A stretch of DNA of 64,000 nucleotides from Pseudomonadota bacterium. Lineage in GTDB: Bacteria; Pseudomonadota; Gammaproteobacteria; Xanthomonadales; SZUA-38. This document shows, piece after piece, positions 31,102-60,994 of the stretch (positions are counted from its first letter, which is position 1; every line of letters begins with the position of its first letter). The stretch lies in contig JBCCCR010000005.1 in NCBI GenBank assembly GCA_039033415.1, positions 124,001 through 188,000 of the forward strand, written 5' to 3'. The position numbers and the translations under genes are program-made. The notes beneath the pieces were generated by a model. That model was not told the DNA's origin, did not search any database, and saw nothing but the letters and a program-made list of their open reading frames with translations.

Positions 31102-33552
31102 TTAGTCCTCAAAGCCGCTGAGAAAGATCTGGCGCGGATTTGTCACGAAGATCACCGCTCCGGCGGCACCCTCAGATTCAGGAGCCCCGATCAACAGCCG
31201 CTGACCCGATACCGCCAGCGCTTCACCAAACCCCAGCTGCATAGCGCGGGCAGATCGCCGTCGCACCGGTTGCGCAGAAGCAGCGTTAAGTTCGAAACGA
31301 TAAATTGCGCCCACCGGGACGTTCGCCACCAGCGCTCCTGGCGACCCGACAGCCAGCGTGCGGTCGCTCACCGCCACCGCAGTTCCAAACCGTCCATCAG
31401 GCACCGGGTCATCCGGCAGAAGCTGTCCGAGCGGCGCCCCTGCGCTGGAAAAAAGGTAGGCCGTCCCTTCGTTGTCTCCGCCCGCGCCGCCAGCGCCCGG
31501 TGCACCCGCCACCACAACTGCCGCACCAGACACCGCTACCGAAAAACCGACCTGTTCGCCCTGCTGAGGCCCCGAAGGCTCAGCCACGGCTAACAACGTC
31601 AGTCCAGCAGGGCCCGCCGCATAGATACCTGCGACACCGGAAACCGTCCCGCCAACTGCGGACGCGCCCGGTGCACCCACGGCTGCAACACCGTTGTTTA
31701 ACGCAACCGACGTGCCAAAGCTAGAACCGCCGGCCGCCCCGGCCAGTTTTACTTTGTTGACCAGCTCGAAGTCCTCGCCTGGGCCACTGCGCGCATAGAG
31801 GTAAGCCGCACCGCTGGCCGTAGCCGTAGCCTCTCCCTCGGCATCTTCGGGCGCACCAATCAGCAGCAGCGAACGGTCGATCGCGACCGCTGCCCCAAAG
31901 GCTGTACCGGGAACGGGGGCGGACAGCGCCTGGTGGAATACCCATTGGCCGGCGGCGCGCTCATACACCGCAACCTCGAGTCGCTCGCCTGGCCCCTTCA
32001 TGCTTACCGACTGCGAGGCGCCCACTACCATGAGGTCACCACTGATCGAAACCGCTGCTCCAAAACCTGAGGCCGAGAAACCGATCGGCACCTCCAGCGT
32101 GGGCTGCGGCTGTGCGCGACCTTCGACAATGCGGTAAATCGCCACCGCACCCTGGTCGGTTGACGACCCAGGAAGACCGCTAGCAAGATCAGACCCGCGA
32201 ACGGCAACGGATGCGCCCAGCCGATCTCCGGCCGCCAGCGAGAGCGGTGGAACCACGGATTCAGCCACGGCGTCGGGCGTCGGAATCCGCTGGGTCACGC
32301 CCGTATCGCGATCGTGGACAAAAACGTTACAGGCCAGAGAGCCGGCACACTCCTCAGCGCCGTCAGCCAGGTCGAGACTGGCCGAGCGCAGCAGCACCCA
32401 GCGGCCGTCAGCCGAGAGGCCCGCGAGCTCGGTGACCGCATCCACTTCCCCACCCGCCGTGGTCACCGACACCCGTCGTGTCGTCGCGGCTCCGCGGTCC
32501 CGGACAAAAACGTCCTGGACGCCGTTGGTGTCGTCCGCCACCAGGTTGCTTGCAGTGGATTCGAAGGCGATCAGGTTGCCATTGTCAGAGACCCGCGAAT
32601 CCGTCGCGGCACCATCTCCCTCAGCGCCCGCCGCTCCCAGAGACACTCGCTCGGTGATTCCCAGGGTGAGGTCTCGTAGATACACGTCACTTTCGCCGTT
32701 CGCGTCGGCGGCAACCGCCGCGCCGTTGGTCTGGAAGGTCAGCCAGCGCCCGTCTGCAGACAGGTCGCCGATCAGCGTCTGGCTGGCGGTCAGCGTTTGC
32801 CCCAGATCATCTCGGCTTGCAATCACGCTTGTTCCCGCCTGGGTGTCAGCCACCCGCAGCACGTTGCCCTGGCCGGCACCGGGGAACTCCTCAAACGCGA
32901 CGAATCGGCCGTCCGCGCTGATGCGCGGATCGGTGGCCGGAGCTGCAAGCTGGGCGCCCGTCTCATCCAGCGACACCAGCCGGGTTTCGCTCGTGCTGAG
33001 GTTATGCAAAAAGATATCGTGGCCGCCACCGTCGTTGTCCGCCGGTTCGAGATTGCTCGCCACGGTCTGAAACGCGACCCATTGACCGTCGTCAGAAACC
33101 ACGGGAAGCTGGCCGCCGGCACTGCTTTGTTCTCCCGCGGTGCTGCGCGACACCAGCCGGGTATCGGGCACGGTCACCAGTCTCACGTAGGCATCCGCCG
33201 TACCGTTCCCGTCCGGATTGCTGAGATCGAGGTCGGCGAAGGAGGCCAGCGCCACCACTTCTCCATTGGCAGACAGGGACGGCGTCCCGCTGACGTCGAA
33301 ATTGCCTGGCGGGTTGCCGGCCGAGTTCAGATGAACCTGAGTCACGGTTCCGTCCTGGCGATTGAAAACTAGCGCCTCGTTGCCGCCGGTCGCGCCACCA
33401 CCGGAGGATACGAGCAGCACAACGGCCGTGCCGTCCGCGGACAGTTCCGCCGCAGCAAACTGTCGCGCCTGGCTGCCGGACTGGCTGACGGCCTGAAAAG
33501 TTGCCAGCGCTCCCGCAAACCCCGCCAGCGCAACCGTCAGGTTAATCTTCAT
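31102..33552 (-). CDS. Exported double-propeller protein (PD40/TolB-like plus FG-GAP-like repeats), FE-tail
   Basis: The 816-residue protein has a signal peptide (VALAGFAGALATFQAVSQ). The first half (~35-440) contains TolB-like PD40 repeats such as SDDGQWVAFQTVASNLEPAD and ISADGRFVAFEE. The second half (~450-790) has FG-GAP/integrin-like units such as FGAAVSISGDLMVVGAS, FGTSVALNNGVAAVGAPG and FGTAVAVSDRTLAVGSPG. It therefore probably folds as two beta-propellers. The last residues are QIFLSGFED, the tail shared by several exported proteins here. Its ATG overlaps the stop of the giant gene upstream (ATGA), so the two are translationally coupled. Such repeat proteins often bind partners or the envelope; no catalytic motif is seen. 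Confidence 0.82.
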   Translation of the reverse strand: MKINLTVALAGFAGALATFQAVSQSGSQARQFAAAELSADGTAVVLLVSSGGGATGGNEALVFNRQDGTVTQVHLNSAGNPPGNFDVSGTPSLSANGEVVALASFADLDLSNPDGNGTADAYVRLVTVPDTRLVSRSTAGEQSSAGGQLPVVSDDGQWVAFQTVASNLEPADNDGGGHDIFLHNLSTSETRLVSLDETGAQLAAPATDPRISADGRFVAFEEFPGAGQGNVLRVADTQAGTSVIASRDDLGQTLTASQTLIGDLSADGRWLTFQTNGAAVAADANGESDVYLRDLTLGITERVSLGAAGAEGDGAATDSRVSDNGNLIAFESTASNLVADDTNGVQDVFVRDRGAATTRRVSVTTAGGEVDAVTELAGLSADGRWVLLRSASLDLADGAEECAGSLACNVFVHDRDTGVTQRIPTPDAVAESVVPPLSLAAGDRLGASVAVRGSDLASGLPGSSTDQGAVAIYRIVEGRAQPQPTLEVPIGFSASGFGAAVSISGDLMVVGASQSVSMKGPGERLEVAVYERAAGQWVFHQALSAPVPGTAFGAAVAIDRSLLLIGAPEDAEGEATATASGAAYLYARSGPGEDFELVNKVKLAGAAGGSSFGTSVALNNGVAAVGAPGASAVGGTVSGVAGIYAAGPAGLTLLAVAEPSGPQQGEQVGFSVAVSGAAVVVAGAPGAGGAGGDNEGTAYLFSSAGAPLGQLLPDDPVPDGRFGTAVAVSDRTLAVGSPGALVANVPVGAIYRFELNAASAQPVRRRSARAMQLGFGEALAVSGQRLLIGAPESEGAAGAVIFVTNPRQIFLSGFED

Positions 33553-36500
33553 GGCTGCTGCTCCGCGGTAGAATCCTGAATTTCCTCGAACCCGTTTTCG
33601 AAGACTCTCGATTCACAGAAGTCGAGAACGCGCTCCAGAACGTCCTGCCGATCTGCCGGGCTGGCCAGCGCCGCCAGGTCAAAGCCGAAATACACGCCGT
33701 CGCCGCTTTCACTGCGGCGAAGCACCGCAGCCCCGCCGCCGTTGCCGTCGAAGATGACGTTCGCATCGCTTTGCGGTTCGAGCACGTCAGCCTGCGGCGC
33801 GGAAAGATCGTAGGGCCCGAGCCCCTCAAAAGCCGGCGCCTGTCCGGTCAGGCTCACGGGATTGACGTCCGACAGGGCGCTGGCCACACCGAGGCTCCTC
33901 ATCAGCGGCGTTGGCGTATCACTTCCCTGGCCACGAGCGTTGAGCCAACCTTCGGAGCTTATGGCGAAACACCCGCCCGCGTCGAGGAAGGACTGGATGG
34001 CCGTTTCGGCGGCGCTGGCCGGGCCAGTGAACACATCGCTCGCCTGACCCGTGGCCCACAGTACGACGTCAAATCCCTGCAGGTCGTCGGCCGCGGGCTC
34101 GTCAGCGTCCCCGTTGGTAACCAGCACCTGTGCCGTAACACCCAGCGCAGCCAGGTCGTTTGTCAGAGTCTGCGCCACGTCCGGCGCGTTATTGTCGTCA
34201 TCCACGAGCAGCAGGTTCACGTCGCGGGGACAAACGGTGGTCTCAAAGGACCGGTCGAAGCCCACCCGTTGCCCCTGGGCGTTGGTGGCGCGAACCCGGA
34301 AGCGATATTCGGTGCCACACACAAGGCCGGAGATGTTGGCACTGACGGGAACCTGTCCACCCGCTGCGTTGACGCCGACCAGCAGCACCACGTTGCCGTA
34401 CGCCGTGGTCAGGCCAAAGTCGAACTGCACGTCCACTACGCCCCCGTTGCCGTCCACCAGCGCGTTGAGCCTGGCTGATGTCTCGGTGATCTGGTCGGCT
34501 GATCCGGTAGTGACCTCCGGAATACCCGCCACACAGCTTTCGGTGGTGAGGCTCGCCACGGTGGACAAGGTCTCACCGCCGGTGTTGGTCGCGCGGAACT
34601 GGAAGTCGAACACCGTTTCGCAGATCAGGTTGTCGAGATCTACGGTCACCTGTACACCCGTGCCCGCAACGTTGCCTGCCGAGAGGAAATCGCCAAACTC
34701 TTGACCGGCGGGCCGCAGCCGATACACCACCTGCGCGGTCTCGCTCGAGTCCACGTCGATCTGAATCCGGGCGCTCTGGTCAGACACGTTGTCAAAGCCG
34801 ATATTGCTCAGCACCGGCGGGTCGACGCACTCGAGCGTGTCAAAAACCAGCGGGCCGTCGGTCACTGAGCCGCTCGAGTTGCTGGCGCTAGCCTCGAACT
34901 CGAAGCTCGAGCTGCAGTCCAGACCATCCACCTGACGACCGACCAGCAGTGGCGTTGAGACCGACGAAGCACTTAGCTCAGGGCCAAACTCACCACCCAC
35001 CGGCCGTAGTCGGAATATCACGTCCGTCAGGTCGCCCTGAGGGTCAACGTCCGCGAGCAGCGTGGCACTGGCGGTGGTTACGTCGATGGGCGCGCGCAAC
35101 TGAAGCGCCGGCGAGCCGGCGGTGGCCGAGACTAAGCCAAACACCCTGGTGGTGGTCTCGCGTGCGGCCAGAGCGTAGGTATCGGTGAGCGGCTGAAACG
35201 TGTTCGCGAGGATATCCAGGGAATAACTGTTGGGGCTGTTGGCCAGGATGAACTCACCCACCTGGTTGCTGAATACAGTCAGGCCGCCGCTGGTAATTAC
35301 CGCACCGGGTATCGGGGCACCGCTGCTACCGTCCACCACACGACCCTCGAGGACGCCCACGTTGTCGCCCAGCGGCTGGAATGCGCGCAGCGTGTAGAAT
35401 GCGCCTGCCCCGCCGCCGCTCAGCGCGGTGACGCGCAGAAAATACTCCTCGTCCTCGGGCAGCGTATTGACGAGCCCAGGGCCGACGGAGAGGCCAACGT
35501 CGCCTCCGGCAAGACCCTGGCTAGTGAACAGTACGGTGTCCTGATCGGACCGCAGCTCCAACCGCAGCTGCAGCTGATCACTTGCATCCTGGTTTACCAC
35601 GCTGAACTCGTAGGTCGCATCCGCGCGCCCAAAGAATCGCACCCAATCCTCGTCCGCTGGAACGTGCAGCGAGTGAAACTGGGCCTGATCGGCGTCGATA
35701 AACAGCACCGAAGCCTGGGCCGCGGTGTCGTCCACCTCATAACCGTCGGGCGCATCCAGCCGTACTACGCTCAGCTCCTGCTGCACCGAGATGTTTTCGT
35801 CATCATCCACCGCAAACAGCGCGACCTGGTACCGGCCGCCCAGATCAAAGCCATCAAAAGACGCCTCGTAAACGCTGCCGCCGACCGGCTGAAGGTCCAC
35901 AAATTGCTGGGGCGCAAACGGGCTCGGCGGCGAGATGGCGGCGAAGACGTTCATCACCGGCGACTGCTGAGTGCTGCTCACGTCAGTCGCCCGCAGGACG
36001 GTGGTGTCGGTACCATCCAGCTCGATGTCGTCGGAAACGCCCCCGATCAGCGGCGCGTTGCCCGCCTGGCGAACGCCGGGACCGATGTTGTAAGCGCGGG
36101 CCACCAGGCCGTCCATGGGGCCATTGGCGCGGCCGTCGTTTTCTCCAGCCACGCCGCCACCGTCGTCGAGCATCGGCATCTGAGTGGTAGACAGGGCCGC
36201 AACCGCGCGAGCGGCAATGTCGAACGATTCCCCGGCGCTTGCGCCGTTGGCCACACCCGTCCAGTAATGGCGCGTAAACAGCGGGTCGGTGTCAGCAAAC
36301 AGCATCGCGTTTTCGGCAAGTCCGGTGCTGGAGAGAATGATGCGCGGCCTGCCGGGGATACCCGCCAGGTCTGGCAGTAGCTGACCCGCCGTGTTGCCTT
36401 CAAACATCGCGAGCAGCGTACCGGTGAGCACCGGCTCAAGTCCCTCCTGCAGGTCGTCGAACCACGCGTCCATATCGCGTGCGGTCAGCAGATCTCCCGC

Positions 36501-39500
36501 GCCCAGGAAAAAGCTGCTGCCCTGGGTGCGACCCACAAAGTAAACGGTGAGATCCTTAAGCCCTTCCGTTGCCCACTGGGTAAAAGTGAACTCCAGCGCC
36601 GAGCGCGAGAGCTGCTGGTCAACGCCCGGAATACCGCTGCTGCCAGCGCTCAAGAAACGAATATCCTCGATCCCGTTGGGATCGTCCTGATAGCCCTGCT
36701 GTAGGAGCGCACGGTAGACGAACGCGGCGGCGTTCTCGATCCGCTGCTGCTCCGTCGGGTTGTCAGAAAAGCCGGCGACCACCACGGCCCGCCGGCGCGG
36801 CGGGTTGGTGATGTTGGCGGTCAAAGGCACCTCGAAACGGGTGAGATAGCCGGACGTGTCGCGCAGCAGAACCTCCACCGAGTACATGCCCTCGGCGACG
36901 AATCCATCGAAGATGCCGCTGAAGGTGCAGGTTGACGCAAAGCCGCAACCGGACAGCGGCGGGGACAGCTCAACCTCAGGCAGCCCGATTACCGGGTTGT
37001 CGCTGGCCCCGGTAGTGAGCATCGGTGGCCTGACCACTGCAAATGCGCGTGCCACGTCTTGCGGGTTGGACACCACCACGTCGAGCGCTCCAGAGAGCTG
37101 CAGGCTGGCGTTTTCGATTCCAGGTGAGTCGTTCACCGCCGCCGTGTCGCCGCCGATAAAGTAGTTCAGCTGACCCAGGTCGCCACCATTGCTGATGCCG
37201 TTGACGTCGACCTGCGGATCCTGGTCAATGGTCTGGTTACCCACCGCCGCCGAAGCCGCCTCGAACGCTTCCCCGACGCTGCCGCCGTCAAAGATCTCCG
37301 ACCAGAACTGGGCCGAGAACGACAGATAGCCCTGGGAGATAAACTTCGCATCCTGACCCGTATTGGTGGTGGTGATCACCACCCGCGCTGGGCTTGGGCT
37401 CTCGAGGTTGTCCAGGAATGACCCGGACTCGCAGGCCTCATAGATCACGGTGAGCTGACCGGGCGCGCCGCTGGTATCCAGGTTGTCTAGCCAGCTTCCA
37501 AGGGTGGTCGAATCCAGCGTCTCGGGCGCGATACCCAGGCTCGGGATGGCCAGCCCGTTAACCCGGAAACGTTCGGTGTCGCCATGATCCGCCAGGTATA
37601 CCACCGCCTCGTCGGCGCCGGCCAGGCTCATGATCGCGCTTTCGATCGCCGTAACCGTGGGAAAGCCGTCGATATCGTCAGCCACACCATCGGAGTCGAT
37701 ATCGGCGTTGTTCAGGTCATCGGCGCTCAGATAGATGATGTCTTCCTTGCGATAACCTCGGAACAGCAGCGTCCGGTAGGCAAGATTAGCGTTCACCTGA
37801 GTCGCGTCCCAGAGATTATTCCCGGCATACGGGCCACCGCCCGCGACGACGACAGCGCGCCGATCAAAGGTCGCAGTTGTTGCCTCAACCACCTGGAGCC
37901 GACCAAGGCGGGCATCGAGCACGGCAAATCGCTGGGCATCCAGCCGCCTTATGGCGCCAACCTCAGCAACACCGAGGGGACCGGTGCCCGGGCCGGCCGG
38001 CTGATCGATTTCGGTGCCCAGCAGCGAAACCCTCACAACACGCGAATCGTTAGGTCCGTTGTCGAAATCGTCTTCGGCCACCGCCAGGGTTTCGTCGGCC
38101 AGCAGCTCAAGCGCTACCGCGTTCGTGGCCAAAGAACCGGTCAGTGGGGTGGTCGCAACGACGGCACTGATCAGATCAACCTGGAACAGGAAGCGAGTGC
38201 CGCCACCGTCGACCGCCAGGCCCAGCAGCTGCGGCTGTCCCATTACGTTCCCCACGGAGAGATCCAGCACGCTGCTCGTACCCGGCACCACCACCAGGGG
38301 TGTCGGTACACCGGCCGCCGGCATCCGGTACAGCAGGCCGGCCGGGCAATCGAAGATCAGATCTCCGTTTGCCTCAGCTACCAGGTGGGACGGGCTGCAC
38401 GGCAGCGGAGCGTCGTTTAGCAGCGCCGCGCTGGGCGTGCCCGGCGCGTACTCCAGCAGGCGGTCGTCTTCGATAATAAAGAAGTTGCCGCCTGTCGGGT
38501 CAGCCGCCACATCGGCGGGGATGGCCGGCATACCCTGTCGATTGAGGTTCTGAACGGACAGCAGCTGGCCGCTGACGTCGTCGAAAAACTGCACCCGGGC
38601 ATTGTTGGTGTCGGCAACAATCAGGTCTCCCGCCGCAGTCACGTCCAGGCCCAGGGGCCGGTCGAAGCGGCCGGGCGTAGTGCCGGAAAACCCGACCTCT
38701 TCGACTAGCTGCCCAAACAGCGTATAGCGGGCAAAGCGCCCGGGAACGCCGATCAACAGGTTGCCGAAGCGATCAAAGATCAGCCCGTTGCTCTCGAGCA
38801 GGCCCGCAAGATCCACGCCGGTGATCTGTGTACCGACCTCACTGAACACCGCGAGGTTGACCCGGTTGGTGTCGTTGGTCAGCAGTGCTACCCGCCCTTC
38901 GCCGGCACTGACGCCAAACTTGAGGTTGTAGCTGTCGCCGCTGCTCACCGTGCCAGGGAAGGAGCCGAGAAAGGTCCCCATGGCGGTGTATCGATCGATG
39001 GTCAGGCTCGCGCCGGCGGTCAGGGTGTAGATCACGCCGTCTGCGCCGGCGGCGATATCCAGCAGCGAGCTGCCCACGGGCTCGGGAATTTCCAGCCGTT
39101 GATAGGTGAGGTCCAGGCCGAGCCGGTGCACGCCCCGATCACCGGAGCCGGCAATCAGCAGCAGGGTCCCGTCGGGGGCAAACTCAAGATCGCGGATAGC
39201 CGACAGGCTGACGCCTGCGGGCAGCCCGGCACAGCCTCCGCTGCCGGCGGCGTTGAGGCAGCCCAGCTCCTGACCGTCGCTGGTATAGCGGGTGAGCGTG
39301 AAGGGCCCGCCGCCGATGGTGACCGAGTAGACGTTGCGCTCGCCATCGACCGCCAGCCGCGCACCCACGCCGGCGCCAGCACCGGTGTCTTCAAACGAAC
39401 CGACCAGCTGAGCGCTGGGGCTCAGCTTGAAAATACGCCCGAGATCGCGATCGCGCACGTAGACAAACCCGAGATTGTCCACCACAAAGCTGTCGGGATT

Positions 39501-42500
39501 GCGGAACGGAATCGGATACGGCGTGTTGGGCCAAAACTTGTTTAGCGTATAGGCGCTGGCCTGGAAGACCGACAGCATGACCGTGGCGGTATCTGAACGA
39601 ACCTGCCCGGTGGCGTCCTCGGTTCGCGTCAGCCCGTAGCTGAAGCTGTCCATGCCCACAAAGCCCGACGGGGGGGTGTAGAGGAAGGTGCCGTCACCGT
39701 TGTACTGCACGGTCCCGCCCTGAGCGCTGACGGTGTCGGTCAGCCCCGGGTCGACATCGCTCAGGGGTGCCGGCGTGCTGCCCCCAGATTCGTCGTTCGC
39801 CAGCACGTTCGGCGTCGTGAAGCCGCTGTCACCCAGCACGTCGAATACGCCGTCGTCCCGAGCGTCGGGCACCGCCCGCACCAGCACCGAGACGGTCGCT
39901 GAACTGGTGTCACCGTTTTCATCGGCAATCCGGTAGACAAACGAGTCAGGCTCGAAAAACGAGGCGCTGAAAAAATCTGCGTTGGGTCGGTAGGTGATCT
40001 CCCCCGTTTCGGGGTCGACCTCGGTGGTGCCGTTTTCGGGCGGGTCGATCACCTGCACAGTGCTCAGATCCAGGGGGCTGGCGCAGGCGCTGGCACCGCG
40101 CAGATCATAAACAACGGCCGCGTCCTCATCGACGAAGTCGAAGTCATCCTGCGTTTGCGGTGACCCGTCCAGCGTCAGCAGAAACAGCTGGCTATCGCTG
40201 AGCTCCACGCCGCCGTTGGCGGTGCCGCCGCTGTCGCGAAGCTGCACGGTAACCTGCATCAGACCCGCAGCCTGGCCCACGTAGCTCAAGGTGCCGGTGA
40301 GCGGATCGATGGCCGGCAACTCGGAAAACAGATCACCGGCAACCGCGCCCGCCGGCTGACTGACCACAATCGAGAGTTCGGTGGTGAGCGTCTGGTCGGA
40401 TTCGTTGGGCGGGCCGGCGCTGATCTGCGGCATAAAGCCCGGCACCAGCGTTTGGGGTTCGCAGGCCGCTCCGGCTTCGAACGGTGGCAAGTTGCCGAAG
40501 CTCGGCTGATCGTTGACCGGGGTGATGGTGAGGTCGACGGTAGCCACTCCGACGTCTCCATTATCGTCCGTGACCTGGTATTGGAAGCTGTCCGGGCCGA
40601 AGTAGTTGTCGTTTGAGTCGTACGTGAAGTCACCGTTGTCCTGCAGCAAGAGCGTGCCGTTGGTGACGTCGGTGACGAGCGTGATGCCGTTCGCTTGCCC
40701 GGCAGCGTCGTCGCCACGGTCGTCGACACCGTTGCCGTTATCCACATCTACGTTGCCGGTAAACGCCACGCCGTCTTCCAGCGCCAGTGCAGGCGCGATC
40801 GGCAATACGTCGTTGGTGGGATCGGGTACCGGGTCGATCGTGATGTCGACTCGAACCGGGGCACTGACATCGGGCGTCGCGCCGACATCGGTGATGGTGT
40901 ATTCGAAAAAGACCGGGGTCACATCATTTAGGGCCGGGTCATAGCTGAAGGTGCCGGAATCCGGGTCGAGCTGCAGCACGCCAAGCGCCGGTGCGGTGGC
41001 TACCTGGAAGCTGCCGGCGCCGACGCCGTCACCCAGATCGTCAACGCCACCGCCGTTGTCGGCGGTCACGTCACCCGTCAGTCTGGTGTCCTCGTCGACG
41101 ATAAAGGCATCAGCCCGGCCGTCCGGAACCGGGTCGATATCGATGTTTACGGTGGCGCCAGGACCGGTGTCGCCGTTGGTATCAGTGACGGTGTAGCTGA
41201 AGCTGTCGGCGCCGTCGAAATCGGCGTTGGGGCTGTAGTTGAAGGACCCGTCGGGGTTCAGCGCCAGCGAGCCATTGGCAACATCCACCGTCAGGTTTAT
41301 CGTGGCCAGCCCCGTGCCCAGATCGTCGACGCCGGCGCCGTTATCGGCGGTGACGTCACCGGACAGGCTGGCGTCTTCGTCAACGACAAAGGCGTCATCA
41401 ACCGGATCCGGGACCGCGTCGATGTTGAACGTGACAGTAGCCGCCGGACCTACGTCGCCGTTAGCGTCCGTAACGAGATAGGTGAATCCGTCGGTGCCGT
41501 CAAAGTTCTCAGGGTAGGTGTAGGTAAAGCTGCCGTCGGATGCGAGCGCCAGCGAACCGGTGGTGACGTCGTTCTGAACGCTGATACTTCCGAGGCCGTC
41601 TCCCAGATCGTCAGCACCGGCGCCGTTGTCTGCCGTGACGGTGCCGCTGAACGTCAGCGCGTCTTCTTTTGGAGCAAAAGTATCGTCGACGGGGTCAGGA
41701 ATCGGGTCCACGTTGATGACCACCGTCGTCAGCGACCCGGTGTCCCCGTTGGCGTCGGTTGCGGTGTACGTGAAGCTGTCGACGCCGTCGAAATCTGCTG
41801 GATACAAATAGCTGAAGGTGCCGTCGCTGTTCAGCAGGAGCGTTCCGCTGCTCACGTCGGTCACCAGGTTGATGCTGCCCAGCCCGTCGCCCAGGTCATC
41901 AGCGCCGCTGCCGTTATCGACGACAACGTTCCCAAGCAGCGGTGAGGCATCTTCTTTGGGTTCGAACAGATCGTCCTCGGTGTCGGGAATCGGATCGACA
42001 TTAATCGTGACAGTGGCAGGCGGCCCGGTATCGCCGTTGGCGTCGGTCACGCTGTAGACGAAGGTATCGGTACCGTCAAAGTCCGCGGGATAGGTAAAAG
42101 TAAAGTCGCCGTTGGCGGACAGCGCCAGCGTGCCTGTGCTGACATCGCTGACCAGATCCACCGTTCCCAGGCCGCTACCCAGATCGTCGATGCCGCCGCC
42201 GTTGTCCACGGTCACGTTGCCCGTCAGGGGAGAAGCGTCCTCCTTGGGCGAAAAGCTGTCGGCTGTTGGGTCCGGCGCTGGATCGATCGCGATGGTGACG
42301 CTTGCCGGCGGGCCGGTGTCTCCGTCCGTATCGGTAATGGTGTAGGTAAAGCTGTCGCTGCCGTTGAAGTTGGCGTCCGGGGAATAGCTGAAGGCACCGC
42401 TGGCGTTGAGGTTGAGCGTTCCATTACTGACGTCGCTGCCCAGGTTGACCGTTCCCAGGCCGTCCCCAAGATCATCAGTGCCATTGCCGTTGTCCGCCAG

Positions 42501-44090
42501 CACGTTGCCGTTGAGCGTACCGTCTTCAACTATAGCAAAGCCGTCGTCAACCGGGTCGGGGATCGAGTTGATATTGATCGATACCGTTGCGCTGGTGCTC
42601 ACGTCACCACTGGCGTCGGTTACCGAGTAGGTGAAGCTGTCGCTGCCGTCAAAATCCGTGGCATAGGTGTAGGTGAAACTTCCATCGCTGTTCAGTACCA
42701 GCGCGCCGCTGCTGACGTCAACCACCAGGTTGACGGTGCCCAGACCGTCGCCCAGATCGTCAGCACCATTTCCGTTGTCTGCGGTCACGTTGCCCGTCAG
42801 CGGTGATGAACCTTCATCGGGGGTAAAGCTGTCAGGCTGCAGGTCCGGGATAGGGTTGACGTTGATCGAGACTGTCGCGGTTGGCCCAGTATCGCCGTTG
42901 CTGTCCGTCACGCTGTAGATAAAGCTGTCGCTGCCGTCAAAATCCGTGGCATAGGTATAGGTGAAGTCGCCGTTGGCGGACAGGCTCAGACTGCCGTTGC
43001 TGACGTCGGTGACCAGGTTTACCGAGCCCAGCCCGCTGCCGAGGTCGTCCGCGCCGCTGCCATTGTCCACCGTCACGTTGCCCGTCAAAGGCGATCCGTC
43101 TTCGTCGGGGGTAAACGTATCGTTCACGGGGTCTGGCACCGGATCCACGATCACGGTTACCAGCGCCGTATCGCTGTCCCCGTTGGTGTCGGTCACCCGG
43201 TAGGCAAAGGTGTCGGTTCCGCTAAAGTCAGCAGGCGGCGTATAGTCGAAGATGCCGCTGGTCTGAAGATTAACGGTGCCAAGAGGCGTCGGCGAAGGCT
43301 CCTGGGTAACCGCGGACAGCCCATCGCCCAGGTCATCAGCGCCGCTGCCGTTGTCGCTCAATACATTATTGATTTCACCGGTAGAGTCCTCCGGTACGGT
43401 GACGTTGTCGGCGCGCGCGTCCGGCACCGCGTCGATATCGATCGTGACCGTCGCGGTATTTCCGAGATCACCGTCTGCGTCGAGAACCTGGTAGGTAAAC
43501 GAGTCGCTGCCGTCGAAGTCTGCCGGGTAGGTGTAGGTGAAGCTGCCGTCGCTGTTGAGGAGCAGCGTCCCCGTGGATACGTCGGTGACAAGATTCACCG
43601 AGCCCAGGCCGTCTCCCAGGTCGTCCGCGCCGCTGCCGTTGTCCGCGGTGACGTTCCCGGCCAGGGGAGAGGCATCCTCCTTGGGTGTGAACAAATCATC
43701 GAACGAATCCGGTACGCGGTCGATGACAATCGTGACCGTAGCCGGTGCGCTGGTGTTCGGCGTCGAATCCGTGATGGTGTAGGTAAAGCTGTCGGACCCG
43801 TCAAAGTCGGCCGGATAGGTGTAGGTAAAGGTGCCGTCGGAATTGAGACTTAGGGTACCGCTGCTGACGTCGGTGACCAGGTCGAACGTGCTGGGCGTTA
43901 CGCCCGGATCGTCAGGGCCGTTACCGTTATCAGCAGCCACGTCGCCAGCCAGCGGCGAATTGTCCTCGGGCGCAACGAAGTCGTCGTCAACGGCAATCGG
44001 CTGAGCATGCGCAACCGCGCCGGCCAGCAGCAGCAGCGCAATGGCAGCGGAACGCAATCGTCCACGGAACGTTATAAACCTACCGATCAC
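33549..44090 (-). CDS. Giant exported multidomain protein: cadherin-like repeats, NHL-like propeller, legumain-like peptidase pair, FN3, FE-tail
   Basis: About 3,513 residues from GTG 44090, which has AAGGAG 10 bases upstream. The frame is open 69 codons further, but the signal peptide (SAAIALLLLAGAVAHAQ) begins near the GTG. The order is: 12 cadherin/Big-like repeats of ~97 residues (~31-1193); three divergent Ig-like domains (to ~1508); an NHL-like propeller (~1509-2075); a C13/legumain-like domain (~2076-2313) with His2169 in YLADHGD and Cys2220 in IYEACESGSF; a second copy (~2430-2668) lacking both residues; a PPC-like domain (~2780-2900); a carboxypeptidase-regulatory-like domain (~2913-2990); three FN3 domains (~2993-3290); and a GATase-like domain (~3290-3490). 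It ends RVFENGFE plus 14 residues. It is probably a cell-surface or secreted adhesin/peptidase, with function unproven. The downstream gene is ATGA-coupled. Confidence 0.85.
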   Translation of the reverse strand: MIGRFITFRGRLRSAAIALLLLAGAVAHAQPIAVDDDFVAPEDNSPLAGDVAADNGNGPDDPGVTPSTFDLVTDVSSGTLSLNSDGTFTYTYPADFDGSDSFTYTITDSTPNTSAPATVTIVIDRVPDSFDDLFTPKEDASPLAGNVTADNGSGADDLGDGLGSVNLVTDVSTGTLLLNSDGSFTYTYPADFDGSDSFTYQVLDADGDLGNTATVTIDIDAVPDARADNVTVPEDSTGEINNVLSDNGSGADDLGDGLSAVTQEPSPTPLGTVNLQTSGIFDYTPPADFSGTDTFAYRVTDTNGDSDTALVTVIVDPVPDPVNDTFTPDEDGSPLTGNVTVDNGSGADDLGSGLGSVNLVTDVSNGSLSLSANGDFTYTYATDFDGSDSFIYSVTDSNGDTGPTATVSINVNPIPDLQPDSFTPDEGSSPLTGNVTADNGNGADDLGDGLGTVNLVVDVSSGALVLNSDGSFTYTYATDFDGSDSFTYSVTDASGDVSTSATVSININSIPDPVDDGFAIVEDGTLNGNVLADNGNGTDDLGDGLGTVNLGSDVSNGTLNLNASGAFSYSPDANFNGSDSFTYTITDTDGDTGPPASVTIAIDPAPDPTADSFSPKEDASPLTGNVTVDNGGGIDDLGSGLGTVDLVSDVSTGTLALSANGDFTFTYPADFDGTDTFVYSVTDANGDTGPPATVTINVDPIPDTEDDLFEPKEDASPLLGNVVVDNGSGADDLGDGLGSINLVTDVSSGTLLLNSDGTFSYLYPADFDGVDSFTYTATDANGDTGSLTTVVINVDPIPDPVDDTFAPKEDALTFSGTVTADNGAGADDLGDGLGSISVQNDVTTGSLALASDGSFTYTYPENFDGTDGFTYLVTDANGDVGPAATVTFNIDAVPDPVDDAFVVDEDASLSGDVTADNGAGVDDLGTGLATINLTVDVANGSLALNPDGSFNYSPNADFDGADSFSYTVTDTNGDTGPGATVNIDIDPVPDGRADAFIVDEDTRLTGDVTADNGGGVDDLGDGVGAGSFQVATAPALGVLQLDPDSGTFSYDPALNDVTPVFFEYTITDVGATPDVSAPVRVDITIDPVPDPTNDVLPIAPALALEDGVAFTGNVDVDNGNGVDDRGDDAAGQANGITLVTDVTNGTLLLQDNGDFTYDSNDNYFGPDSFQYQVTDDNGDVGVATVDLTITPVNDQPSFGNLPPFEAGAACEPQTLVPGFMPQISAGPPNESDQTLTTELSIVVSQPAGAVAGDLFSELPAIDPLTGTLSYVGQAAGLMQVTVQLRDSGGTANGGVELSDSQLFLLTLDGSPQTQDDFDFVDEDAAVVYDLRGASACASPLDLSTVQVIDPPENGTTEVDPETGEITYRPNADFFSASFFEPDSFVYRIADENGDTSSATVSVLVRAVPDARDDGVFDVLGDSGFTTPNVLANDESGGSTPAPLSDVDPGLTDTVSAQGGTVQYNGDGTFLYTPPSGFVGMDSFSYGLTRTEDATGQVRSDTATVMLSVFQASAYTLNKFWPNTPYPIPFRNPDSFVVDNLGFVYVRDRDLGRIFKLSPSAQLVGSFEDTGAGAGVGARLAVDGERNVYSVTIGGGPFTLTRYTSDGQELGCLNAAGSGGCAGLPAGVSLSAIRDLEFAPDGTLLLIAGSGDRGVHRLGLDLTYQRLEIPEPVGSSLLDIAAGADGVIYTLTAGASLTIDRYTAMGTFLGSFPGTVSSGDSYNLKFGVSAGEGRVALLTNDTNRVNLAVFSEVGTQITGVDLAGLLESNGLIFDRFGNLLIGVPGRFARYTLFGQLVEEVGFSGTTPGRFDRPLGLDVTAAGDLIVADTNNARVQFFDDVSGQLLSVQNLNRQGMPAIPADVAADPTGGNFFIIEDDRLLEYAPGTPSAALLNDAPLPCSPSHLVAEANGDLIFDCPAGLLYRMPAAGVPTPLVVVPGTSSVLDLSVGNVMGQPQLLGLAVDGGGTRFLFQVDLISAVVATTPLTGSLATNAVALELLADETLAVAEDDFDNGPNDSRVVRVSLLGTEIDQPAGPGTGPLGVAEVGAIRRLDAQRFAVLDARLGRLQVVEATTATFDRRAVVVAGGGPYAGNNLWDATQVNANLAYRTLLFRGYRKEDIIYLSADDLNNADIDSDGVADDIDGFPTVTAIESAIMSLAGADEAVVYLADHGDTERFRVNGLAIPSLGIAPETLDSTTLGSWLDNLDTSGAPGQLTVIYEACESGSFLDNLESPSPARVVITTTNTGQDAKFISQGYLSFSAQFWSEIFDGGSVGEAFEAASAAVGNQTIDQDPQVDVNGISNGGDLGQLNYFIGGDTAAVNDSPGIENASLQLSGALDVVVSNPQDVARAFAVVRPPMLTTGASDNPVIGLPEVELSPPLSGCGFASTCTFSGIFDGFVAEGMYSVEVLLRDTSGYLTRFEVPLTANITNPPRRRAVVVAGFSDNPTEQQRIENAAAFVYRALLQQGYQDDPNGIEDIRFLSAGSSGIPGVDQQLSRSALEFTFTQWATEGLKDLTVYFVGRTQGSSFFLGAGDLLTARDMDAWFDDLQEGLEPVLTGTLLAMFEGNTAGQLLPDLAGIPGRPRIILSSTGLAENAMLFADTDPLFTRHYWTGVANGASAGESFDIAARAVAALSTTQMPMLDDGGGVAGENDGRANGPMDGLVARAYNIGPGVRQAGNAPLIGGVSDDIELDGTDTTVLRATDVSSTQQSPVMNVFAAISPPSPFAPQQFVDLQPVGGSVYEASFDGFDLGGRYQVALFAVDDDENISVQQELSVVRLDAPDGYEVDDTAAQASVLFIDADQAQFHSLHVPADEDWVRFFGRADATYEFSVVNQDASDQLQLRLELRSDQDTVLFTSQGLAGGDVGLSVGPGLVNTLPEDEEYFLRVTALSGGGAGAFYTLRAFQPLGDNVGVLEGRVVDGSSGAPIPGAVITSGGLTVFSNQVGEFILANSPNSYSLDILANTFQPLTDTYALAARETTTRVFGLVSATAGSPALQLRAPIDVTTASATLLADVDPQGDLTDVIFRLRPVGGEFGPELSASSVSTPLLVGRQVDGLDCSSSFEFEASASNSSGSVTDGPLVFDTLECVDPPVLSNIGFDNVSDQSARIQIDVDSSETAQVVYRLRPAGQEFGDFLSAGNVAGTGVQVTVDLDNLICETVFDFQFRATNTGGETLSTVASLTTESCVAGIPEVTTGSADQITETSARLNALVDGNGGVVDVQFDFGLTTAYGNVVLLVGVNAAGGQVPVSANISGLVCGTEYRFRVRATNAQGQRVGFDRSFETTVCPRDVNLLLVDDDNNAPDVAQTLTNDLAALGVTAQVLVTNGDADEPAADDLQGFDVVLWATGQASDVFTGPASAAETAIQSFLDAGGCFAISSEGWLNARGQGSDTPTPLMRSLGVASALSDVNPVSLTGQAPAFEGLGPYDLSAPQADVLEPQSDANVIFDGNGGGAAVLRRSESGDGVYFGFDLAALASPADRQDVLERVLDFCESRVFENGFEEIQDSTAEQQP
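40510..44000 (-). repeat. Twelve tandem ~290-bp coding repeats (cadherin/Big-like domains)
   Basis: Within the giant gene, units of about 94-100 codons recur. Each has an ED-[AG]SPL..NVT.DNG.G.DDLG core, then TFTYTYPADFDGSDSF and a closing I-D-x-[IV]-PD segment. The DADGD/DTNGD loops are typical calcium-site acidic turns. Unit similarity is high enough in places (e.g. units 2, 4, 5, 7 and 8) for recombination between copies. The most divergent units are 1, 3, 11 and 12. Confidence 0.85.
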
Positions 44091-44411
44091 AGCATGGCGA
44101 CTCCTTGTAACCGTGCCCGCGCCGGGCTTGCTGTACGGTCGAGACAGCGCCACGCTTAGACCCATCCTGAGTCTCAACCGGCGATGCTCCCACACCCCTA
44201 GAGCCTTGAAATCATACGTGATGGGTGGAAAGCGGTCTAATCCCGGGATGCTTTCCGCTTCCGGTGTGGCTGGGTGAGATGGCCTCCACAGCAGCACTCG
44301 GAATTCCTTTCATGGCAATTTGCCCTTGACCAGCACGGGAATCGAGACGGAAAACTCTCACGATTCGTCTATACCTGGAAGAAACCCCGGTCTTGAGAAG
44401 GCGATTGTGGA

Positions 44412-45262: not shown

Positions 45263-47494
45263 CTACGGAACTTCAAACCCGCTGGAAAAGACGACATCGC
45301 CGGTGAACAGCGCGACGTTGCCCGCATAGACAGGGCCTGTCTGGTCGAATGTGCCGCCGATGTAGAGCCCTTCTGATGTCGAGAGGAGGCTGGTGCCAAC
45401 GCCGGGCACAACACTTCCCGAGCCGAGCGCCGGGAATGGCGTCTGGATCGTACCGCCATTGAGTCCGATCCAGCTGCTGCCATCCCATGCGGCGATACCA
45501 CGGCTGGTAACACCTCCTGCGTCATCAAAGTCACCGGTGATGTAAATCAGTCCGTCGTGTAGCCGGATATCCTGAACGCTGGTCGCGGCAGCGCCGCCGT
45601 CAAGGCCGGTACCCAGAGCAAAGAGATTGCTTCCGTCCCAACGGCCAATCCGATTCAGCCGGCCAGGCGCATTGTCGACGACGGTAAAACGGCCACCGAA
45701 ATACAGATCACCGTCAATGTTGGCCAGCGCGAGAGCACCCACGCCCGAGCTGAAGCGGATGATCACGTCCCACGTGCCGTTATCGAGCAGCGCAATCACG
45801 TCACGCCGCGTACCGTTTTCAAACCGGAAGTTGCCGGCGGCCGCGATCTGCCCGTTGTATTCCCCGATAGCAGACAACGAGATCGGTTCCGGAAAGCCGC
45901 TGCTCGCGTCCTCGATAGTGCTGCCATTAAACCGACAGACCCGGGGGAGCACGGACCCGCAGCCGCCGCCAACGCCAGAGAAATAGAGGGCGTTTTCAAG
46001 GACGTAAAGGTTGTCAGCAAAAACGTCGGAACCGCCGGCATCGCGCCAGCTGCTGCCGTTCCAGGCTACCAAACCGCCGGTCGCCGAACCGCCGGCTCCA
46101 CTGACGTTGCCGGCGGCATAAAGCTCGCCTTGAAACACCGCCAGGGAAAAAATATCGCCGGTGACACCGTTCCCGACGGCCGACCAGCGGGCGCCGTCCC
46201 AGCGTGCAATCACCGGTGCATTAACGTCATCGCCGGCAGAAAGAAAGCCGCCTCCGGCATAAACCTCACCATTGTATTCTTCAAGCACCTGGGCGGCGCC
46301 CTCAATCCCCTGACTGGTACCCCGCCAGAGCCCGTCAGGCTCTCCCTTACAGACAACAAATGGACTGAAGATCTCAGTCCCCGATATGCCAAAGTGAAGC
46401 AGACAGATGTCATTGTTCGGCTGCGTAATGACTTGCGTCGCTGTTAAAGCAGAACCCAGATCCAGCGCCGTGGTGTCAACCGCCTCCCAGGCAAACCCGT
46501 CCCAGCGCGCCAGCCCGTTCGCCCCTGGCAAATCCGGCCAGGGTCCGGTCACGTAAAGGAAGCTGGAGTTGGTGGCCATGCTCGGTACGGTAAAGCCAGG
46601 GCCCTGACTCCCGTCGTCCAGTGTTCGCCAGCTAGGTCCTGAGGCGACCGGGGACACGGCGATTCCCGGCACGGGCTCGCTGTCGATTTTGTCGAAGGCT
46701 CCTGTCGCGATCACTTCGTTGTTAAAAAAGGCCAGATCGCTGACGGTCCCGAACGATGTATTTCTTTCGGTCTGCCCAAATGGTGTCCAGGTAGTATTGG
46801 TCAAGTTGTAGCGGAATACGCCGCTGCCGCTGGCGACAAACACAAAACCTTCGAAGGTACGCACCACTTGGACCGGGGCCACAACGCCGTTGGTGGCACC
46901 ACCGTTTCCGATCAGCGGCTCCCATTCTGCGCCGCTGGTTCGCGCCACTCGGCTGGCCGTGATCGGCGCCCCCTGGTTGTCCCGCACTTCGGTAAAGCTA
47001 CCGCCGATGTAGAGGTAGATGCCACCATCGAACCAAACCGAATTGACCGCATTGTTCGGCCCGTTGCCTGTGCCGCCCGGCTGATACCAGCTGTCTTCAG
47101 CGGTGCTGTAGCAGGCGATGAAGTTGAACCCACCGGGGCTGAAGTTGGTGAAGTTTCCGCCGACGCAGTAATCATTGCGAAACGGGGTCACCGAGGTGAT
47201 CGAGCCGCTGAAAATCCCGAAGTCGATGGCGCCGCCGGTGCGCCAGCGACCATTTTCAAAGAATCGAAGTACATGAAACTCGACCTCACCCGCGGCATTC
47301 ACGAACTGCAGCGGCTGACCCGCGCCGACAAACCCTTCAGGCGTCTCGGCGATGGCCGTTAAGGCGAGCTCTGGAGCACGAGCAAACTGATCGCTCCACT
47401 GACCCGCCACAGGACCTGCCGCCAGCAACAGCAAAACCCCCAAGAGAACCACCATCGGGCTGCCGCAGCGGTCTGTGTATCGTTCGTTCACCAT
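45263..47494 (-). CDS. Exported kelch/Rax2-like beta-propeller protein, FE-tail
   Basis: The 743-residue protein has a signal peptide (MVVLLGVLLLLAAGPVAGQ). It repeats a unit of the form [LI]Y[IV]GG[SN]F... then R-W-D-G plus a small sequence, as in GIYLYIGGSFTEVRD, LYFGGRFTVVDNA and GLYIGGTFDQTG. This resembles galactose-oxidase/kelch or Rax2-type propellers. The C-terminus is VVFSSGFEVP, the shared tail. AGGGA lies 8 bases before the ATG. It precedes nothing in an overlapping fashion, and 98 bases separate it from the paralogous TolB-like genes upstream. The function is unknown and it lacks known catalytic residues. Confidence 0.75.
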   Translation of the reverse strand: MVNERYTDRCGSPMVVLLGVLLLLAAGPVAGQWSDQFARAPELALTAIAETPEGFVGAGQPLQFVNAAGEVEFHVLRFFENGRWRTGGAIDFGIFSGSITSVTPFRNDYCVGGNFTNFSPGGFNFIACYSTAEDSWYQPGGTGNGPNNAVNSVWFDGGIYLYIGGSFTEVRDNQGAPITASRVARTSGAEWEPLIGNGGATNGVVAPVQVVRTFEGFVFVASGSGVFRYNLTNTTWTPFGQTERNTSFGTVSDLAFFNNEVIATGAFDKIDSEPVPGIAVSPVASGPSWRTLDDGSQGPGFTVPSMATNSSFLYVTGPWPDLPGANGLARWDGFAWEAVDTTALDLGSALTATQVITQPNNDICLLHFGISGTEIFSPFVVCKGEPDGLWRGTSQGIEGAAQVLEEYNGEVYAGGGFLSAGDDVNAPVIARWDGARWSAVGNGVTGDIFSLAVFQGELYAAGNVSGAGGSATGGLVAWNGSSWRDAGGSDVFADNLYVLENALYFSGVGGGCGSVLPRVCRFNGSTIEDASSGFPEPISLSAIGEYNGQIAAAGNFRFENGTRRDVIALLDNGTWDVIIRFSSGVGALALANIDGDLYFGGRFTVVDNAPGRLNRIGRWDGSNLFALGTGLDGGAAATSVQDIRLHDGLIYITGDFDDAGGVTSRGIAAWDGSSWIGLNGGTIQTPFPALGSGSVVPGVGTSLLSTSEGLYIGGTFDQTGPVYAGNVALFTGDVVFSSGFEVP

Positions 47495-47593
47495 TGTCGT
47501 TCCCTACCGTTGAGCGTGCGGCACTTGCCGCTCCTTAACTAGCAGGGCGAAAAAACGATCTTGAGTCCGCCAGGACCTCCAGAAAAGTTGCGT

Positions 47594-49288
47594 TTACGGT
47601 GCTTCTTCGAAGCCGTCGAAGAACACAGGATCGGGCAGCCCGATGCTGCCCCTCGGTGCGCTGAACAGCTCCACGACTCCGTCGGCAAGCTGATCGGCAC
47701 GATAGATGATCCGAGATCCGTCTGGACTCACGTCAAAGAACTCTACGCTGCCGCCGCTGACCAGCGGTGGGTTGACTTTCTGGATAGCGCCACCTTCGAT
47801 CGACACGATGAACAGCTCGCTGACGCCTTGCGTATCCCGGTCTGCGAGAAACAGAACGGCCCGGCCGTCCGGGGTGATGACATAGCGGGTGATGCCGGTG
47901 CCCGCGGGAAACCCGTCAACCAGCGTCGTTACCGGTCCACCGCCAAACGGGACGCTGAACAATGCGTTGACGGGCGGTTGGCCTTTCGTGGCAACGCCAC
48001 CGTCTTTGCTCGCCTGGTCAGGGACTGTAGCGTACACGACGGCCCTGACCTCATCGGATATCTCGAAGGTACTGACGATGTCACGGTTCGGCAATGGGGT
48101 ATTCAGTTTGGTCGAAATGCCGCCGCCCGGCGGTACGCTGAATAGCTCAGTGCGATTATTGGAAGCCTGGTAAAAGACCGAGCTGCCGTCAGCGCTGAGG
48201 GCGAATGGCCCGACGCGACCCAGGGTAGGATCGCTCAATTTGACGCCCCCACCACCGCCGATGAGAACGCTGTACAGTTCAAGAAGGTTGTCCGTGTCCT
48301 GATCCGCAACGTAGAGGACCCGCAACCCGTCTGGGCTGATCTGGAACCGGAATACCCGCCCGCCGCTGACGAGCGGACTGTTGAGTGTCGTTATGGGGCC
48401 GCCATCAATGGGGACGCTGAATAACTCATCGGTTCCAAGCTGGTTCACGGCGGCCAGGTAGAGCACGGTCGAGCCGTCGGGATGGATTCGAAAGCCGGAT
48501 CCGTTCACGTCGCCATTCGCGGATAGCGGCTGGTTGAGCTTGGTCACGATACCTCCGGCCGCAGGTACGCTGTAGAACTCCTGCACACGGTTAGTGTCCT
48601 GATCTGCAACGTAGACCACGGTGCCGCCGTCCGGACTGAAGATCGGATCAAAAATGATTTGCCCGCCGCTGACCAGGTCATCGTTGAGCTTCGTCACCGC
48701 GCCCCCGGATGCGGGAACGCTGTAAAGTTCGATCACGCCGTTCCTCGTCTGGTCGCCCGTATAGATGACTCTTTCCATATTGGGGCCAAAGAAGAATTCT
48801 CTGATATCTCCTCCCGCCGGCAGCGGGTCATTGAGTTTCTCCACGTTGCCGCCCTCGATCGGGACGGTGAACAGCTCGAAGACGTCCTCGGAGTCTTGAG
48901 AGGCGACAAAAAGGGCTTTGGTGCCGTCCGGGCTCAGGAGAAAGCCGTTAAACCGAACGTCGCGCCCCCCTTCCAGCGGTTCATTCAGCTTGGTCGGCGC
49001 GCCGCCGACGATGGACACACTGTAAAGCTCATCCACCTCATCGATGTCCTCGTCGGCCAGATAAACAACCTTGGCGCCGTCGGCGCTGATGGCGAAGCTA
49101 AGGATCTCACCTCCCTCGACCAGCGGACCGTTCAGTTTCACCGGTTCAACCTGCGCAAGCGCCGATACCAGGATCACGAAAAGCAAGATGAACCACGCCA
49201 GGACCAGCCAGATGACTGGAATGGGCTTCTGGCTGGATGGGTCGGCTTTCGAGGTCGCGCGGAGCATGGCTAACCGGTCAGTGTTCAT
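47594..49288 (-). CDS. TolB-like PD40 beta-propeller protein, FE-tail (paralogue 1)
   Basis: The 564-residue protein has an N-terminal hydrophobic leader (IWLVLAWFILLFVILVSALA). Around ten ~50-residue repeats follow, of the form LFSVPxxGGxxTKLNxPL...ISPDGxxVVYxADQDTD. Such repeats form TolB/DPP-like propellers. The C-terminus is PVFFDGFEEAP. I place the start at ATG 49288, which shares one base with the paralogue's TGA (TGATG) and has GAGGAAG 7 bases upstream; a GTG three bases earlier is an alternative. Full repeat-by-repeat similarity to the neighbouring gene shows tandem duplication. The protein may bind peptide or polymer ligands, but no catalytic motif is visible. Confidence 0.82.
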   Translation of the reverse strand: MNTDRLAMLRATSKADPSSQKPIPVIWLVLAWFILLFVILVSALAQVEPVKLNGPLVEGGEILSFAISADGAKVVYLADEDIDEVDELYSVSIVGGAPTKLNEPLEGGRDVRFNGFLLSPDGTKALFVASQDSEDVFELFTVPIEGGNVEKLNDPLPAGGDIREFFFGPNMERVIYTGDQTRNGVIELYSVPASGGAVTKLNDDLVSGGQIIFDPIFSPDGGTVVYVADQDTNRVQEFYSVPAAGGIVTKLNQPLSANGDVNGSGFRIHPDGSTVLYLAAVNQLGTDELFSVPIDGGPITTLNSPLVSGGRVFRFQISPDGLRVLYVADQDTDNLLELYSVLIGGGGGVKLSDPTLGRVGPFALSADGSSVFYQASNNRTELFSVPPGGGISTKLNTPLPNRDIVSTFEISDEVRAVVYATVPDQASKDGGVATKGQPPVNALFSVPFGGGPVTTLVDGFPAGTGITRYVITPDGRAVLFLADRDTQGVSELFIVSIEGGAIQKVNPPLVSGGSVEFFDVSPDGSRIIYRADQLADGVVELFSAPRGSIGLPDPVFFDGFEEAP

Positions 49289-50964: not shown

Positions 50965-51272
50965 ATAACTGTTCCGCGATAGCCCAATAATTAACGTACC
51001 GACCGAAGCTCGGCAGGGCCGAGACGGATAGTTGTCCAGCATAAGCATGCATTGCGAGCGTTTGAGCGACCGTGGTAACCAGCGTTGAATCGGTGGGTGA
51101 ACGGCCTTGCGTGTGGCGGCGACTTTCGTGGAGCGTTCTAAGTGTTTCGGCAGGTGCTTAGTCGCAGGAAAATGCAGCAACAGGCCAACCGATCGGTCGT
51201 TTTGCCTTCAAACAGAGGACAGCAAAAAAGACGCGGCTTTCGGTGACTCGGTGACCGGTTACAAAAAAATTC
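50965..51272. other. Intergenic stretch upstream of the TolB-like pair
   Basis: About 300 bases between the start of the TolB-like pair and the end of the iron operon. It probably holds the promoter of the pair. I recognise no gene, clear repeat or strong terminator here. Confidence 0.4.
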
Positions 51273-60725: not shown

Positions 60726-60994
60726 GTGCGCGCCTTTGATGACGTTTTAGTTAGCGGGGGAGCCGCAAGTAGACGGGACACGCTTTGCAAAACCGTTGCG
60801 GTTTTATGACAGAGATATTGCAGGCTCGACATACCCCCGGCGGGATGGTTCGTTTATGTAGTCAGCCTAGCGATTGGGCTCCTGTAACAAGTCGCTTGGG
60901 CGCTCGTATCTAGCGTGAAAGGAGCGATCAAAGCGTTCAGCTTCGATGGACCAAACCCGAGACCAAAACCAGACATTTGGAATTAGCGAGACCT

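Follow-up and report, generated by a model that had tools for sequence, protein, structure and literature searches.

A predicted bacterial legumain-type peptidase joined in one chain to a catalytically dead copy of itself

In a 64,000-nucleotide stretch of DNA (the window) from a gammaproteobacterium of the Xanthomonadales (GenBank assembly GCA_039033415.1, contig JBCCCR010000005.1), one gene encodes a very large protein with two domains that are predicted to have the fold of legumain (peptidase family C13). The first domain has kept the catalytic His and Cys, and the second has lost both. The same pair of live and dead domains is found in several phyla, which suggests that the dead domain serves a function of its own. 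We lean towards the view that these are secreted proteins in which an active C13 peptidase has a pseudopeptidase as its in-chain partner, be it a regulatory, a stabilizing, or a substrate-aiming one.

Domain architecture of the protein

The features of the gene and its product (P0001) are:

33549..44297, minus strand: gene for the 3582-aa multidomain protein P0001 (one open frame in the ORF list)
39560..44000 (borders approximate), minus strand: tandem-95 / cadherin-like / Big_9 repeats (Pfam and NCBIfam)
37881..39530 (borders approximate), minus strand: NHL-type beta-propeller region ahead of the peptidase pair (NHL match at residues 1878-1903)
37131..37871, minus strand: copy 1, predicted C13/legumain-fold peptidase domain with intact dyad, residues ~2143-2389 (PF01650, model, and legumain fold match)
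37668..37703, minus strand: candidate Ca2+-binding loop of copy 1, DIDSDGVADDID, residues 2199-2210 (DxDx[DN]G-type pattern; putative metal site)
37584..37586, minus strand: predicted catalytic His2238 (invariant column in 23 and in 48 sequences; aligns with the legumain His)
37431..37433, minus strand: predicted catalytic Cys2289 (invariant column in 23 and in 48 sequences; aligns with the legumain Cys)
36810..37121, minus strand: Ig-like beta-sandwich 1 (model strands 254-357; homologous to sandwich 2)
36060..36803, minus strand: copy 2, predicted legumain-fold pseudopeptidase, residues ~2499-2746 (legumain fold match, Z 24.0; dyad lost)
36528..36530, minus strand: Arg2590, at the position of the catalytic His (alignment)
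36393..36395, minus strand: Asn2635, at the position of the catalytic Cys (alignment)
35757..36050, minus strand: Ig-like beta-sandwich 2 (strands 255-351 of the copy 2 model)
33582..33605, minus strand: C-terminal VFENGFEE, a variant of the FxxGFE tail that is common in the window's genome

The start of P0001 as listed is a GTG, and the true start may be downstream, before the signal-peptide-like stretch RSAAIALLLLAGAVAHA of the N-terminus. The N-terminal region has about 14 tandem-95/cadherin-like repeats and resembles giant adhesins of the Tandem-95 or BapA type. Besides the repeats, the propeller, and the two copies, there are weak matches to CarboxypepD_reg and fn3. Each copy forms a unit with the Ig-like sandwich that follows it (unit 1 is residues ~2143-2496 and unit 2 is ~2499-2847). 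The stop of the giant's gene and the start of the following gene (31102-33552, minus strand, 816 aa) share 4 bases, 33549-33552, so the two are probably co-translated. The product of that next gene has a tail of the same kind as the giant's.

A live copy and a dead copy

A first-pass annotation of this DNA, whose residue numbers are those of P0001 minus 69 (its His2169 and Cys2220 are H2238 and C2289), had pointed out a His/Cys pair in copy 1 and the loss of both residues from copy 2. We see the same: copy 1 has YLADHGD and YEACESGSF, and copy 2 has YFVGRTQG (R2590) and FEGNTAG (N2635). It had placed the pair at 36070-37870, which is the right place but with the wrong limits; the paired unit extends from about 35750 to 37880, and the second sandwich ends near nucleotide 35757. 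It had also proposed that a unit of peptidase and sandwich was duplicated within a cadherin-repeat giant. The unit was indeed duplicated: copy 1 and copy 2 can be aligned over their full length, together with their sandwiches (BLASTP E 2e-18, 26% identity), and their likeness is not due to chance, because the Smith-Waterman score is 209, as compared to at most 79 in 1000 shuffles. It was not within this giant that the duplication took place, however: this is an old unit with 11 loci in the genome and members in several phyla.

Copy 1 is matched by PF01650 (Peptidase_C13) at 33.0 bits, with a gathering score of 22.8, and so are 23 of 23 paralogs. The similarity to solved legumains is clear in profile searches, and the profile alignment puts the catalytic His-Gly and Cys of copy 1 in register with theirs. 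(If copy 1 alone is compared to PDB sequences with phmmer, then the legumain matches are weak and are mixed with antibody chains.) An AlphaFold2 model of the pair, built with 48 sequences from the window and its relatives, has a pLDDT of 90.2 and a pTM of 0.88, and its first half matches legumain 6azt with a VIA-align Z of 24.5 (220 residues, 2.5 A). GPI-anchor transamidase and asparaginyl ligases are also among the fold and profile matches of copy 1. In the profile alignment, the Arg of legumain's RHQAD stretch falls on an Ala in copy 1, so we would not assume the Asn/Asp specificity of legumain, and the cleavage specificity of copy 1 may differ.

The Pfam C13 profile does not match the window's copy 2, and Pfam misses the dead copy in 20 of the 23 paralogs. 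Proteins with the pair are therefore likely to carry the annotation of an ordinary C13 peptidase or of an adhesin. Modelled alone, copy 2 has a pLDDT of 92.4 and matches legumain with a Z of 24.0 over 217 residues (2.3 A, 12% identity). On these models, copy 2 is predicted to be a true pseudopeptidase, with the legumain fold and without the dyad. The expectation that both copies would have a clan CD fold is borne out by AlphaFold2 (Z of 24.5 and 24.0 to legumain), and we saw neither a fold unlike clan CD nor a misplaced dyad, since by profile the dyad is in the legumain register.

In the model, the tandem forms a compact unit, which would be consistent with a fixed arrangement of the two copies. 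This matters for the idea that copy 2 acts as an inhibitory zymogen segment and that self-processing removes it to activate copy 1. The first-pass annotation had raised self-processing as a possibility, alongside a regulated cleavage of surface proteins. There is a precedent among clan CD enzymes such as legumain and gingipain, which become fully active only after a cut outside the central sheet (PMC4357240). Nevertheless, the compact model speaks against a removable part, as do the further domains that follow the pair in several paralogs, and we consider this scenario improbable.

Occurrence of the pair

Intact pairs are present 11 times in the window's genome, 9 times in a genome of the same genus, and 3 times in a genome of the same family, while the other 98 genomes that were searched together with these three gave no match. 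A scan of named genomes added 77 loci, from Desulfobacterales, Hydrogenedentota, Nitrospirota, several Gammaproteobacteria, one metagenome-assembled genome (MAG) labelled Bacteroides, and one Anaerolineae. Many of the scanned genomes are MAGs, so single phylum labels need care. Pairs are also found in other Gammaproteobacteria, Thermodesulfobacteriota, Hydrogenedentota, and other phyla, and the domain occurs in both single and paired forms. When 96 genomes from the order of Desulfonema magnum were sampled, the domain was present in 17 of them, at up to 22 matches per genome (counting both copy types). Because Desulfonema magnum and Desulfamplus magnetovallimortis are among the named relatives, it should be possible to do tests outside of MAGs. 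The viral contigs that we searched had no relatives, so as far as we have seen, the pair is not phage-borne.

The pair usually has an NHL propeller in front of it (for example, NHL repeats also precede the pair in L031, L052, L053, and L061). Most of the paralogs are short (about 1270-1650 aa) and do not have the long N-terminal part of the giant, so its tandem-95/cadherin-like repeats look like an addition to the peptidase pair. Two fragments were also noticed. The end of a further copy-2 domain lies at a contig edge in the window's genome (G000:C21:1-210) and is probably from a twelfth pair, and two short frames that retain traces of the domain lie on the contig of a giant homologue, L048 (G001:C53:52910-54129), and are probably a broken copy.

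Ancestry and selection

Across 61 non-identical pairs, the first copy always has both the His and the Cys (61/61). In the second copies, the His is absent from 61 of 61 (in one case this is an alignment gap) and the Cys from 57 of 61. Where the Cys was lost, Asp is the commonest residue of the second copies (32/61). We did not see two live copies in one protein among the loci that we analysed. One protein of Desulfonema magnum (L095:7906-10305) has two domains of the copy-1 type, the first of which is dead by a change of Cys to Ser. Because the order of dead and live domains is reversed, this suggests an inactivation that was independent of the other pairs. A genome of the same class but outside of the order (G316, locus L135) likewise has a second copy, with Asn and Pro at the two catalytic positions.

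In a careful tree of 64 rows, from which long rows were left out and in which the catalytic columns were masked, all 25 of the second copies are on one side of a branch with bootstrap 100 (though the bootstrap had not fully settled) and SH-aLRT 99. A quick tree of 142 rows explains copy type by one change, but because of the long rows, the exact second-copy branch is without support. Since the second copies group together even without the catalytic columns, a single old duplication appears to be the origin of the pair. Furthermore, the distances between first copies are correlated with those between second copies (Mantel r of 0.87 in the family and 0.62 overall; 0 of 1000 permutations), so the pair is inherited whole and travels as a unit, whether vertically or by transfer.

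In paralogs of the window gene, the dead copy is under purifying selection: when five of them were compared with their orthologs in the genome of the same genus, dN/dS was 0.033-0.099 in copy 2, similar to the 0.035-0.059 in copy 1. For the window gene, the relatives offer no close ortholog (the best is 44% identical), and its copy 2 is among the more diverged second copies. With one old duplication and with selection to keep it in relatives, copy 2 very probably does something. Could it instead be a functionless leftover of the duplication that is decaying? Both of its catalytic residues are gone, but a single old clade across phyla and dN/dS of 0.03-0.10 contradict neutral decay, which we reject for the family. 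It could remain only for the window's own copy, and we give it almost no credence.

How the dead copy might act

We return to our preferred reading, in which copy 2 is a partner of the enzyme. The working core of the apparently secreted protein would be an NHL propeller, the active C13 peptidase, an Ig domain, the pseudo-C13 domain, and a second Ig domain. Copy 1 would most likely be an active cysteine peptidase of clan CD that uses His2238 and Cys2289, and copy 2 would most likely be a permanent in-chain partner that stabilizes, gates, or aims it, much like subdomain A, which is inactive, next to the active subdomain B of gingipain. The propeller, Ig, and cadherin-like modules may hold the enzyme at the cell surface or on its substrate. 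The partner is not required by all members of the family, because there are 47 single-domain relatives without a dead copy.

Alternatively, copy 2 could be an exosite that binds a substrate or a ligand: its old cleft would deliver a peptide or a surface partner to copy 1, or would add adhesion, without controlling catalysis. In favour of this idea, copy 2 has kept the fold and has conserved positions of its own while its catalytic positions vary freely, the copies sit among many binding modules, and the single-domain relatives manage without copy 2. On the other hand, copy 2 has been retained one-to-one next to an active copy in 61 pairs, which fits a joint function somewhat better, so we think that a pure exosite is rather unlikely.

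If copy 2 does regulate copy 1, then Ca2+ is a candidate for the signal. A loop of the DxDx[DN]G type lies ahead of the His in 62 of 67 first copies of pairs, as compared to 20 of 47 single domains and 1 of 64 second copies. A longer form of the loop, with a further Asp pair, is present in 44/67, 11/47, and 0/64, respectively (0.2% in shuffles). Because the loop is almost confined to the active copy of pairs, it suggests that this copy depends on Ca2+ outside of the cell, if the loop does bind metal. There are other Ca2+-linked enzymes in clan CD, namely the metacaspases and gingipain (PMC4357240).

More tentatively, these proteins may represent a class of extracellular peptidases of bacteria that has yet to be described, with members in several phyla and with numerous copies in a genome. 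In each of them, a legumain-type enzyme would be permanently fused to its own pseudopeptidase, the product of a single ancient inactivation, and this dead partner would work as a switch within the chain, with Ca2+ as a possible signal. We would not insist on all of this. NCBIfam has no model for the pair, and among the open-access papers that we searched, we found none on live/dead pairs of C13 domains from bacteria.

Comparison to known systems

Pseudoenzymes have mostly been studied as separate proteins or as recent losses. Here, the dead peptidase and its live twin have remained together ever since a single old event, across many paralogs and phyla, and this makes them a clean system for asking what a dead fold contributes to a live one. 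The pairing of an active peptidase with a catalytically dead homologue is familiar from caspase-8 and the pseudo-caspase c-FLIP, and a structure of that complex (3h11) is among the fold matches of both of our copies. However, caspase-8 and c-FLIP are two separate proteins of family C14, and here both partners are in one chain and belong to family C13.

Family C13 itself, which includes legumain (asparaginyl endopeptidase) and GPI8, shares the fold, the HG and AC[EQ]SGS active-site motifs, and PF01650 with our proteins. Unlike legumain, the unit described here is bacterial and apparently secreted, and it has a dead second copy, Ig sandwiches, propellers, a Ca2+-like loop, and Ala in place of the RHQAD Arg. 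Legumain is active as a monomer (PMC4357240).

The nearest described case is gingipain. Gingipain R (family C25) combines an active subdomain B, an inactive subdomain A, and an IgSF domain in one chain, much as active, dead, and Ig domains are combined here, and its inactivated domain and its active one form a covalently linked, caspase-like dimer (PMC4626109). The inactive part of gingipain comes first. Our proteins start the pair with the active copy, they have an Ig domain for each copy, and their family is C13. Pfam's C25 (gingipain) profile does not match the window's member at E 0.01, and just one of 23 members matches, with E of 0.009.

C-terminal tails

Six proteins of the window, all on the minus strand, end in or near [FI]xx[GS]FE: those encoded within 31102-33612, 33549-44309 (the giant), 45263-47503, 47594-49363, 49288-51207, and 57909-60746. 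In the whole genome, the strict pattern FxxGFE followed by the stop occurs 27 times, as compared to 1 for a reversed control pattern. Other genomes of the order have as many as 46 or as few as zero. FxxGFE looks like an undescribed C-terminal sorting tail.

It might be suggested that copy 1 is mainly a transpeptidase or sorting enzyme, like its C13 relatives GPI transamidase and the plant asparaginyl ligases, and that it attaches or trims surface proteins. That such enzymes are among its fold and profile matches, and that so many proteins of the genome carry the tail, would fit. But genomes of the order that do not have the peptidase (e.g., G006, G010, G013, and G017) show the tail just as often, and in other phyla, the peptidase unit carries other tails, so this seems highly improbable. 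On the same grounds of tail frequency, we reject the peptidase as the general processor of the FxxGFE tail.

In the Desulfobacteraceae (L052, L062, L086, L090, L092, and L098), the peptidase pair ends in a GCFI-type tail, and single-domain relatives often end in a dockerin-like stretch, so the unit has been joined to different anchoring ends.
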